A stretch of 64,000 bases of DNA, from NCBI GenBank assembly GCA_030446805.1, contig JAUJMO010000001.1, forward strand, positions 194,138-258,137. Reading direction: 5' to 3'. Of this stretch, positions 3,256-45,384 are shown piece by piece. How positions within the stretch are numbered: position 1 is the stretch's first letter; the number at the start of each line of letters is the position of its first letter. The stretch is from Caulobacteraceae bacterium (lineage in GTDB: Bacteria > Pseudomonadota > Alphaproteobacteria > Caulobacterales > Caulobacteraceae). The notes beneath the pieces were generated by a model that saw nothing but the letters and a program-made list of their open reading frames with translations, did no database searches and had not been told where the DNA came from. The position numbers were made by a program, and so were the translations under genes.

Positions 3256-3495
3256 ATGGCCGACACCCTGGAGCGCGTGCGCAAGATCGTCATCGAGCAC
3301 CTGGACGCCGATCCCGAGAAGGTGACGGACAAGGCCAGCTTCATCGACGACCTGGGCGCCGACAGCCTCGACAACGTCGAATTGGTGATGGCTTTCGAAG
3401 AGGAGTTCGACATCGAGATCCCTGACGACGCGGCCGAAACCATCCAGACGGTGGGCGACGCGGTGACCTTCATCGACGGCAAGCTGAACGCCTAA
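3256..3495 (+). CDS. acpP: Acyl carrier protein
   Basis: 79-residue acidic protein that carries growing acyl chains on a phosphopantetheine arm. The attachment site is the serine of [18 protein letters not shown], and the acidic helix II that follows is the surface recognised by Fab enzymes. The ATG at 3256 follows an AAAGAGAAG purine run that can serve as ribosome binding site and gives the standard ACP start ([12 protein letters not shown]). The frame is open further upstream to 3175 but that part is not ACP-like. It sits between fabG and fabF as in many bacteria. Confidence 0.97.
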
Positions 3496-3503
3496 GCGTG
3501 TCC

Positions 3504-3610
3504 GCTCCCCACGCGGGAGCTGTCCGCGAAGCGGACCCAGGGGGCTTCCGGAGAGAACGGGGCCCCCTCCACCGTGCTTCGCACGGTTACCCCTCCCCCT
3601 GAGGGGGAGG
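3504..3610 (+). repeat. Row of four hairpins between acpP and fabF
   Basis: Four perfect inverted repeats lie end to end: GCTCCC/GGGAGC (3504-3509 with 3515-3520), GTCCGC/GCGGAC (3522-3527 with 3531-3536), ACCGTGC/GCACGGT (3571-3577 with 3581-3587) and CCTCCCCC/GGGGGAGG (3592-3599 with 3603-3610). Loops are 3-5 nt. No T-run follows any of them, so they are not classical terminators. Such mosaics resemble the repeated intergenic palindromes of Caulobacteraceae genomes; whether this one is repeated elsewhere cannot be seen from one window. Confidence 0.7.
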
Positions 3611-3629
3611 AGACTGTAAGGATCATCCC

Positions 3630-4913
3630 ATGCGTCGCGTTGTCGTCACCGGCCTGGGCCTGCTCACTCCGCTCGGAAACGGCGTCGATGTGAGCTGGCG
3701 GCGGCTGCTCGAGGGCCGGTCGGGCGCTGGTCCGATCACCGCGTTCGACGCATCCGAGATGGGCTGCCGCATAGCCTGCGAAGTGCCGCGCGTGGACGGC
3801 CGGGGCGGGGGCGGGTCGGATGTCGAGGGGGCGTTCGACCCTTCGGCCGTCATGGCGCCCAAGGAGCTGCGCAAGGTCGACGACGTCATCCTGTACGCCG
3901 TGGCAGCCGCCGACGAGGCGGTTCGCGACTCGGGCTGGGTTCCCCAGTCGGAGGAGGATCGCGAGCGCACGGGCGTGATCATCGGCTCGGGCATCGGGGG
4001 GCTCGGCACGATCGCGGCGACTACGCTGGAGCTCCACGAAAAGGGCCCTAGGCGGGTGAGTCCCTTCTTCATTCCCTCGGCCCTGACCAACCTCACCGCC
4101 GGACAGGTCTCCATCCGCCACGGGTTCAAGGGACCGAACCATTCAGTGGTGACCGCCTGCGCCACCGGCACCCACGCCGTAGGCGACGCCTCGCGGCTGA
4201 TCATGTTCGGCGACGCGGACGTCATGGTGGCCGGCGGTTCGGAAGCGGCGGTGGTCCCGCTGGGGATCGCCGGGTTCGTGGCCTGCCGAGCGCTCTCCAC
4301 CGGTTACAACGACCAACCTGAAAAGGCCTCCCGGCCCTACGACAAGGGGCGCGACGGCTTCGTCATGGGCGAGGGCGCGGGCATGCTGGTGCTTGAGGAA
4401 TACGAGCACGCCAAGGCGCGCGGGGCCAAGATCTACGCCGAGGTGAAGGGCTACGGCCTGTCCGGGGACGCGTATCACATCACCGCGCCCACGCCGGACG
4501 GCAACGGCGGCTTCCGCGCCATGCAGTCGGCGCTCAGGCACGCGGGCATGGCGCCGGCGGACATCGACTACATCAACGCCCACGGCACCTCGACCCAGTT
4601 GGGCGATGAGCTGGAGCTGGGCGCCGTCGAGCGGCTGCTGGGCAATGCGGCGGGCAAGGCCTCCATGAGTTCGACCAAGTCCGCCATCGGGCATCTCCTG
4701 GGCGCGGCGGGCGCGGTGGAGGCGGCCTTCACCTGCCTGGCCATCCGTGACCAGGTCGCGCCGCCGACCATCAACCTGGACGATCCGTCGGTGGCGACCG
4801 CGATCGATCTGGTTCCGCACAAGGCCAAGCCGATGCAGATCAGGGCGGCGCTGTCCAACAGCTTCGGCTTCGGCGGCACCAACGCTTCCCTGGTCTTCGC
4901 GCAGGTCCAGTGA
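3630..4913 (+). CDS. fabF: 3-oxoacyl-ACP synthase II FabF
   Basis: 427-residue condensing enzyme that elongates acyl-ACP with malonyl-ACP. The Cys-His-His triad is complete: C177 in [12 protein letters not shown]318 in [12 protein letters not shown] and H355 in [11 protein letters not shown], with the C-terminal [10 protein letters not shown] loop. Length and motif order fit FabF rather than FabB or FabH. The start follows a TAAGGATC ribosome binding site. Its TGA overlaps the GTG start of mltG (4910-4913), so the two are translationally coupled. Confidence 0.95.
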
Positions 4914-42280: not shown

Positions 42281-43746
<1,466 letters not shown>

Positions 43747-43750
<4 letters not shown>

Positions 43751-44010
43751 GCGACAAGATAGAAGACCAGGTTGGTGAACTCATCTGGCCGCTGCTTGAG
43801 AGCCTCCGCTCTATGTCCACCGAGCACTACTTCCGAAGAGCAATCGCCGAATTTGCTCTTCGTGAGTTGGCGTGGGGCGCTGTCGAGCAACTTGATCTCA
43901 TAAACGAAGAGATCGCGGAGCACCTGGATATTCTCGCCTCAGCTCTCCGGACAACCAAAATCCGGCCATCCTCTGGAGAGGATCACCCTAACTCCGGGAG
44001 GGACGAGTGA
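43747..44010 (+). CDS. Unrecognised small protein inside the suf operon (1)
   Basis: 87 residues, acidic, predicted mostly helical ([31 protein letters not shown]). I do not recognise the family. The gene starts with GTG overlapping the sufB stop by 4 nt and ends overlapping the next small gene (TGATG). GC content is about 53-57% in the spans I counted against about 70% nearby, and its codons are more A/T-ended. SufB and sufC are usually adjacent, so this looks like an inserted gene that kept translational coupling. Confidence 0.6.
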
Positions 44011-44287
44011 TGGTTCATCCAGGTTTCGTGACGGAGTGGAATCAGCCGAGTCCGAATATCGGTGGTGCCGCTTGGGAGCTGCGACAGCATGGCTACCTGA
44101 CTTCGTTCATCAATCATAAAACAGCGATAATGATCGAGTACAGCGACGAGACGGGGGTGAGCTTCCCACCACTCCTCAAGCTGCTTCGGACTCTGATCTA
44201 CCCGACTGTCGGCAGCGTCCTGATCATCAGCAAGCGTAGTGGGAAGCATGGCGTCGTTAAACGAGGCCGAAAGTTCAAGTGGTCTTG

Positions 44288-44288
<1 letters not shown>
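44010..44288 (+). CDS. Unrecognised small protein inside the suf operon (2)
   Basis: 92 residues, basic at the C-terminus (SKRSGKHGVVKRGRKFKWS), with a hydrophobic strand TVGSVLIIS. Family not recognised. The ATG overlaps the stop of the preceding small gene and its own TGA overlaps the sufC ATG (TGATG at 44286-44290). One counted 60-nt stretch here is 47% GC, the lowest I found in the window. An acidic protein followed by a basic one in a coupled pair could form a complex, but that is inference only. Confidence 0.58.
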
Positions 44289-45036
<748 letters not shown>

Positions 45037-45037
<1 letters not shown>

Positions 45038-45384
45038 TGGCGCTGCGCGACCGTTACGTGGCGGAGGTGGCCAGGGCGTCGGAAGTCGAAGCGCCTCGCC
45101 GGAGCGCGCTCGACGAGCTGCGCACCTTCGCGGCCGGCCTGCCCGAAGAACTCCGGGCCATGGAGATCACGCCCTTCGAAGTGGAGCTGTTCGAGGAGGA
45201 ATCCGAGCTCCGGGTCGACACCGGCCCCTGCATGGTGATCGTCCGCGCGCAGCCCCACGGCGGGTTCCGGCTGGCGCATGAGGTTAAGTCGGCCGTCGAC
45301 TACACGGAGATCGAGACGCCTGGCGTCGACACCGTGGAGCGGCTGGAGGCCGAGATGGCGCGCATCCTGGCCGCGTTCCGATGA
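45037..45384 (+). CDS. Unrecognised 115-residue suf-operon protein
   Basis: 115 residues, GC-rich like the rest of the operon, with overlaps at both ends (TGATG with sufC, ATGA with sufD). Predicted alpha/beta: a helical first third (LRTFAAGLPEELRAM), then strands (FEVELFEEESELRVDTGPCMVIVRAQPHGGFRLAHEV) and a C-terminal helix (VERLEAEMARILAAF). I cannot name the family. Its composition and position suggest a long-standing member of this operon, unlike the two low-GC genes upstream. Confidence 0.68.

Follow-up and report, generated by a model that had tools for sequence, protein, structure and literature searches.

The window, a 64,000 nt stretch of a Caulobacteraceae contig, contains an operon which we take, with gene names assigned by eye, to consist of iscR, a cysteine desulfurase gene, sufB, ORF1, ORF2, sufC, a spacer gene, sufD, sufS, a sufT-like gene and a sufA-like gene. 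All window features described here lie on the + strand. The sufB gene (42281..43750), assigned from its open reading frame and by tblastn against relatives, with an exact start codon that is uncertain, forms the left flank of a short slot, and sufC (44288..45037) forms the right flank. Between them lie ORF1 (43747..44010), which starts with GTG and encodes an acidic protein of 87 aa with a pI of 4.7, and ORF2 (44010..44288), which starts with ATG and encodes a basic protein of 92 aa with a pI of 10.2; both proteins lack cysteine. The genes overlap at all three joints, as ORF1 starts over the sufB stop codon at a GTGA (43747..43750), ORF1 and ORF2 share a TGATG (44008..44012), and a second TGATG (44286..44290) joins ORF2 to sufC, the ATG of which overlaps the ORF2 stop codon. 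These two small genes, their overlaps and a drop in GC content had been described in a sequence-only reading of the window, and each of the three was borne out. The slot (43751-44287) has a GC content of 55.1%, against 65.0% in sufB and 70.1% in sufC, and only 1 of the 1270 stretches of 537 bp in the window was as low, which is probably the slot itself. GC at codon positions 1, 2 and 3 was 63.6, 40.9 and 62.5% in ORF1 and 52.7, 44.1 and 65.6% in ORF2, and third-position GC was about 90% in sufB and sufC; codon-position bias was kept in both ORFs, although it was weaker than in the flanking genes.

Putative translation signals were found for both ORFs. A Shine-Dalgarno-like GAGGGGAG (43733-43740) lies within the end of sufB, six bases 5' of the ORF1 GTG, and a second such element for ORF2, GGGAGGG (43996..44002), lies within the end of ORF1. 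The predicted duplex energies, for which we used an assumed anti-Shine-Dalgarno sequence in place of the genome's own, were -8.3 kcal/mol upstream of ORF1, -10.8 kcal/mol at the ORF2 site and a weak -2.8 kcal/mol at sufC. Between sufC and sufD, a further gene encodes a spacer protein of 115 aa (45037..45384), which has a 37% identical relative in the sufB-sufC slot of genome G041 (locus L095).

SufC was detected in 357 of 390 genomes of the family (Caulobacteraceae). Junction lengths were determined in the window and in 100 operons among the matches listed, which were ordered by similarity to the window sufC, an ordering that skewed the sample, with 73 of the 100 operons coming from a single genus, g3 (probably Brevundimonas, by our guess). 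The sequence-only reading had assumed that sufB and sufC are normally adjacent, which does not hold in Caulobacteraceae: among the matches listed and the window, the gap between them exceeded 120 bp in 80 of 101 operons. At the six other junctions of the same operons, again among the matches listed and the window, gaps of this length made up 0-15%, with 1/87 at iscR-iscS and 0/100 at iscS-sufB upstream, and 13/101 at sufC-sufD, 15/101 at sufD-sufS, 0/101 at sufS-sufT and 6/101 at sufT-sufA. Because the spacer family also occurs in the sufB-sufC slot of G041, and because of these 13 sufC-sufD gaps, sufC-sufD may be another slot that is filled less often. In other families of the class, the sufB-sufC gap exceeded 120 bp in 10 of 49 genomes overall, namely in 7 of 40 (taken from 71 with a SufC match; median gap 37 bp) and in three of nine further genomes that were read with 1.5 kb flanks only. 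In other families of the order, eight loci were fetched and sufB was reachable in seven, all of which had gaps longer than 400 bp, two of them without a convincing ORF.

Family and order together provided 136 distinct sufB-sufC junctions, of which 28 were at most 30 bp long, 4 measured 31-150 bp and 104 were longer. Slot GC was below flank GC in 76% of the 104 long junctions, with a median difference of -3.95 points, and the difference in the window (-13.2) was the fourth lowest. The first slot ORF of at least 50 aa began at -4 over the sufB stop codon in 79/104 long junctions, and the last slot ORF finished at -1 over the sufC ATG in 32/104, so that kept overlaps are common in the census and not peculiar to the window. 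Two loci, L004 and L083, belong to the same genome, where the junction was read only to a sufC' fragment, short of the full sufC; L083 was counted as a long junction in the cargo, census, turnover and overlap counts and was left out of the boundary-linkage and Shine-Dalgarno analyses.

Candidate cargo ORFs were present in 101 of 131 distinct junctions, which does not support the view of the filled slot in the window as a single unusual event. The 141 candidate ORFs, some of which are surely spurious, fell into 65 BLASTP clusters, 41 of them singletons. When 106 slots were searched by tblastn, the 'spacer' family was found in 14, VOC/glyoxalase in 11, ParE-like genes in 8 (mostly with a ParD-like partner), GIY-YIG in 6, a 215-aa family in 6, MUG113 in 1, a DUF559-like family in 2, the ORF1 family in 6 and in L182, and the ORF2 family in 2. 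About nine of 58 representative cargo proteins, scanned as a pooled table, matched Pfam at E ≤0.001: two 2OG-Fe(II) oxygenases, DUF1330, a MUG113 protein with a homing-endonuclease repeat, SnoaL, Imm32, GIY-YIG, ParE and glyoxalase. NCBIfam added a RelB/ParD-type antitoxin, the ParE and RelB/ParD matches being one member each among the 58. PADLOC matched the 2OG proteins only, and PHROGs returned 11 families among the cargo, mostly without known function. Lipoprotein-like and small membrane proteins were also recognized by eye, and certain slots contained only short or doubtful ORFs or repeats. For a cargo protein of cluster 2, nothing was matched at E 1e-6 among 119 sampled genomes, a search so insensitive that the slot member of G013 (27% identity), although in the sample, fell below the threshold, and the 'HSSGH' cargo family occurred in 2/119 genomes, within the slot in G153 and with no suf gene within 3.3 kb in G305.

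We compared contents between related junctions. Among 105 family junctions, pairs with flanks at least 93% identical and both slots occupied had different cargo in 54 cases and common cargo in 9, where 'different' means no blastp match at E 1e-4 and fast divergence may pass for replacement. Cargo was also common to pairs with flanks less than 80% identical, including ORF2 with its relative in G100 and members of the ORF1 family. The congener G001, the sufB DNA of which is 93.7% identical to that of the window over 1550 bp and ends in the same final codons, carries a gene other than ORF1 that begins at the same -4 overlap and has a relative in the cargo of L110 (55% over 38 aa). The contig of G001 (L267, G001:C65 end) stops 450 bp past sufB, so its slot is seen in part, and its tail, judged by eye, resembles an unrelated gene in reverse orientation and is likely a chimeric end. 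Foreign-looking cargo set into a conserved operon with the overlaps kept, as the sequence-only reading had it, was upheld, and within the genus the contents differ. Related genomes share the same conserved flanks and differ in gene contents, as is typical of insertion hotspots flanked by core genes; most sampled genomes have an occupied slot, and its contents differ between close relatives. That the slot exists and turns over quickly is, in our view, almost certain.

The C-terminus of SufB reads SLEGSVG in 132 of the 132 junctions compared, and the DNA at the end of sufB differs by slot state, being mostly GGGAGCGTGGGRTGA at occupied slots and GGCTCGGTCGGNTRA at empty ones. Within genus g3 (53 occupied and 18 empty junctions), the excess of within-state over between-state identity was 0.153 for the final 30 nt of sufB ahead of its stop codon (43718..43747 in the window) and 0.137 for the initial 30 nt of sufC, and at both ends 0/2000 label shuffles reached these values. 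In the other 30-nt windows, up to 600 nt either side, the excess was at most 0.022; the residual linkage was 0.002 at sufB -60 to -31, a value reached by 68/2000 shuffles, and 0.005 at sufC 31-60, reached by 9/2000. Label shuffles take no account of relatedness, and a better control is provided by the other windows. In g3, occupied and empty strains were mixed in the gene bodies and separated at the extreme ends. The simplest reading of these alignments is that slot state changes through exchange, with breakpoints that would fall within about 30 nt of the gene ends. Instead of joint transfer, selection that acted repeatedly on a ribosome site or on further local features could also account for the end linkage; the two readings are not exclusive.

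Signals for coupled translation also followed slot state. An (A/G)TGA overlap was present in 84/104 occupied junctions and in 1/28 empty ones (Fisher 2e-14). The median Shine-Dalgarno energy at the end of sufB was -8.7 kcal/mol in 83 occupied junctions and -6.2 kcal/mol in 20 empty ones (p 7e-9), while a control window did not separate the two states (p 0.64). The empty g3 junctions (e.g. L081, L085 and L125) carry an A-rich leader that ends in a AAGAAGAA-like sequence before sufC, and SufC often begins with MLK there and mostly with MLS at the occupied junctions shown.

A less directed process was considered as the origin of these patterns, in which the junction is a tolerant spot where non-adaptive insertions drift in and decay, and selection later refines the overlaps and the sufB-end codons. 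Selection could explain the Shine-Dalgarno difference, and the slots with only short or doubtful ORFs or repeats, as well as decayed sufC' fragments, are consistent with such a process. However, an ORF of at least 50 aa begins exactly at -4 in the 79 of 104 long junctions mentioned above, long gaps are far fewer at all six other operon junctions among the matches listed, and certain families recur, such as VOC (11 slots), 'spacer' (14) and ORF1, all of which argues against it, and we regard this explanation as unlikely.

Fragments of the flanking genes were detected in several slots. The 2085 bp slot of L171 (G211) is a cassette array with two sufC'-sufB' chimeric mini-ORFs that have the same join point; it opens with a cargo gene, a 43-aa chimera of the SufC start and the SufB end, a second cargo gene and a 42-aa chimera, and continues with a small membrane protein, a SufC-start fragment and a further cargo gene, followed by sufC. 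SufC-start fragments were also found upstream of ParDE-like pairs in L107, L140 and L150, at the slot start in L159 and, by eye, before a ParDE-like pair in L004. Short matches to the sufB or sufC end in other slots (e.g. L116, L139 and L165) were taken for chance and rejected as scars. GIY-YIG genes occupy the first part of the slot in L076, L094, L127, L138, L143 and L151, and in L076, L094 and L127 the ten codons that end SufB are repeated 3' of the gene; in L138, L143 and L151 no second sufB-end copy was found. Several of the GIY-YIG genes adjoin repeat peptides of the HPRACPEDP/GTSPRMT type. The slot gene of L098 (G187) matched MUG113/T5orf172 and, below threshold, a homing-endonuclease-associated repeat. 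In the window's own slot, the scar comparison of slots revealed no recombination scar, and no endonuclease gene was matched. Judged from the sequences compared, it is probable that slot contents move as units by recombination.

ORF1 aligned with an 85-aa slot protein of G185 at a Smith-Waterman score of 69, which is 9.7 s.d. above shuffles (0/2000). A two-row profile gave matches in 10 of the 390 family genomes at E ≤0.05, with E ≤1.1e-15 in the window, G100 (the ORF2 part), G185, G075, G265, G229 and G330, and E 0.03-0.05 in G271, G004 and G138. G004 (E 0.037) and G138 (E 0.049) were excluded and G271, a weak match backed by blastp to L178, was kept, which gives an ORF1 family in 7/390 genomes (the window, G185, G075, G265, G229, G330 and G271), all seven between sufB and sufC; in six of these genomes, one of them the weak match, ORF1 relatives occur without ORF2. 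A search of 338 genomes at the order level added nothing solid, matches in G119 (E 0.006) and G245 (E 0.009) not being counted, and a candidate at L049 was rejected (z 2.4). Named relatives came from an Asticcacaulis MAG, a Caulobacter MAG, Caulobacter ginsengisoli and a Phenylobacterium MAG, the slot proteins of which are identical to those of four family genomes and are probably the same records. The fifth named relative, in Roseomonas genomospecies 6 ATCC 49961, had no suf gene within 7 kb; at this locus (L190, ~3434-3689) a recombinase-like ORF, recognized by eye, lies about 3 kb off on the other strand.

Other searches with ORF1 gave few leads. No Pfam match was obtained for ORF1 or ORF2 up to E 10, no NCBIfam match in the ORF1 family, 0 families in ORF1's own table in the cargo family scans, and nothing below E 0.2 in a PDB sequence search with both ORF profiles. 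For ORF1 and ORF2, 40 relatives returned nothing beyond the window itself, and plasmids returned chance-level matches only. The Roseomonas protein had nothing convincing in plasmids and phages (one Moraxella match, E 0.02), nor did the ORF1 family in viral contigs. The AlphaFold model predicts a three-helix bundle for ORF1 (pLDDT 66).

The location of the ORF1 family in a suf gene neighbourhood, in all seven members examined, fits an earlier suggestion of a lineage-specific Fe-S factor. In one such reading, ORF1 would be a SUF accessory or regulatory factor, kept in the slot through its action on SufB/SufC, and ORF2 a passenger. In the accessible part of a report on the C. crescentus operon, where a small gene lies in the sufB-sufC junction, the genes are co-transcribed over those junctions that were tested and are regulated by iron, with an IscR ChIP peak at the sufB end (PMC11475020), and co-transcription with iron regulation would suit such a factor. 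However, the family occurs in only 7/390 genomes, the congener has another gene at the same place, the Roseomonas relative has no suf gene nearby, and neither ORF1 nor ORF2 contains a cysteine for ligand or sulfur-transfer functions. We consider this role for ORF1 rather improbable.

ORF2 resembled the sole cargo gene of G100 (L037) with a score of 78 and a z of 12.8 (0/2000 shuffles), and this relative occupies the same sufB-sufC slot without ORF1. The profile found no ORF2-family member besides that of G100 in the 390 family genomes. None of the other genomes among these 390 carried both genes together, a result that speaks against a toxin-antitoxin pair. No close relatives of ORF2 beyond the window were found in 84,980 species genomes or in viral contigs, and matches in phages were at chance level only. 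Weak matches appeared at 15 places in 15 other genomes (E 0.001 to 0.08), and of six loci that were read only L037 held: the frames in L034, L035 and L043 run antisense to an unrelated gene, and L041 and L045 were not convincing. The family scan that covered ORF2 (58 pooled cargo members) yielded a pooled table and not one of its own. A single-sequence model predicts an alpha-beta-beta-alpha-beta-beta arrangement (pLDDT 67.8), for which Foldseek matches to BolA, KH and other alpha-beta folds were weak and mixed (best E 0.053), and the best VIA match had a Z of 6.6 (rmsd 3.2, 84 aligned) with many unrelated rows at like Z. This arrangement of elements is common, and we made no assignment to a fold family.

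These relatives bear on whether ORF1 and ORF2 could be partners in a toxin-antitoxin or comparable addiction system, kept by lock-in to an essential operon. The order of a small acidic protein and then a basic one, the overlapping genes and the low GC content are in keeping with such a pair, as is the presence of ParE-like genes in 8/106 other slots, three with an upstream sufC' fragment (L107, L140 and L150). Against it, the ORF2 relative stands alone in G100, six genomes, with one weak match among them, have ORF1 relatives and no ORF2, the Pfam (E 10) and NCBIfam searches described above gave no match for either ORF and for the ORF1 family, respectively, and the ORF2 model has weak, mixed structure matches only. 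With neither the joint conservation nor the similarity to known families that mark type II systems, an addiction pair appears very doubtful to us.

Taken together, our results lead us to propose, with a probability of about 0.72, that ORF1 and ORF2 make up the current cargo of a sufB-sufC slot that is hypervariable in this family, that this cargo is replaced as a unit and coupled in translation, and that the two genes were separately acquired. Incoming DNA would recombine while anchored in the conserved flanking genes, by which the slot contents would be replaced as a unit; GIY-YIG or other homing-type endonucleases in the slot may help replacement in some lineages, or the process may finish as an addition on one side only, with sufC' and sufB' fragments left behind. 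The cargo would be translated from a Shine-Dalgarno-like site in synonymous codons at the end of sufB together with the (A/G)TGA overlap. Ribosomes terminating on sufB would find GAGGGGAG and start on ORF1, ORF2 would be reached through its own strong site, and sufC, with its weak site, would rely, at least in part, on re-initiation once translation of the last cargo gene ends, thereby tying the cargo and sufC together. These predicted sites would probably allow ORF1 and ORF2 to be produced in parallel with SufB, and the yield of SufC probably depends to some degree on termination at the end of ORF2. The two small proteins would have been acquired separately, with no obligate partnership between them. 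An accessory or conflict-related role is more likely for them than a core step in Fe-S assembly, given the company they keep in the slot (ParDE-like pairs, Imm32, lipoprotein-like and small membrane proteins, and endonucleases).

The original observation on the window was right and its frame too small, because, as far as our searches show, the pair is one filling of a larger, undescribed cargo slot. More tentatively, Caulobacteraceae might possess a dedicated cassette-exchange site, in which the end codons of sufB and sufC would serve as boundaries and cassettes of 1-3 small genes, some of them toxin-antitoxin, immunity-like or endonuclease genes, would pass from one strain or species to another with no site-specific recombinase involved, each cassette bringing its own coupling ribosome site. 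If this is true, the site would be an integron-like gene bank with a core operon as promoter and anchor. Operons that encode core machinery are generally regarded as closed, and the suf operon appears to act as a platform from which exchangeable small genes are expressed, in a host family that is large, well studied and includes Caulobacter. The slot would account for lineage-specific genes inside a core operon, offers a testable case of how foreign genes can enter an operon whose genes overlap and leave it intact, and is a defined place to seek new small-protein functions, as most of the scanned cargo has no known family.

The closest description is that of C. crescentus, which in the accessible part of the report concerns the same junction and operon, with one genome, one gene and an organization that is called conserved (PMC11475020). 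In the openly licensed full-text literature searched, we found no description of the sufB-sufC junction as variable. Integration hotspots flanked by core genes have conserved flanks and fast-changing contents, which are presumably exchanged via homologous recombination in the flanks. The suf slot resembles them in its conserved flanks and quickly changing contents; unlike them, it lies inside an operon of overlapping genes, its cargo comprises a single small gene or a few, its ribosome site is apparently in the upstream gene, and strong flank linkage ends within 30 nt. Free-standing homing endonucleases spread in phages by intronless homing, and GIY-YIG genes in 6/106 suf slots and a MUG113/HNH-repeat protein in another recall them, whereas most suf slots, that of the window included, hold no recognized endonuclease. 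In contact-dependent inhibition, orphan toxin/immunity modules form arrays in which the modules are separated by fragments of the flanking gene. Although the flanks of the suf slot are Fe-S assembly genes and its cargo is mostly of unknown kind, the modules of L171 are, like those of the arrays, set apart by fragments of the flanking genes.
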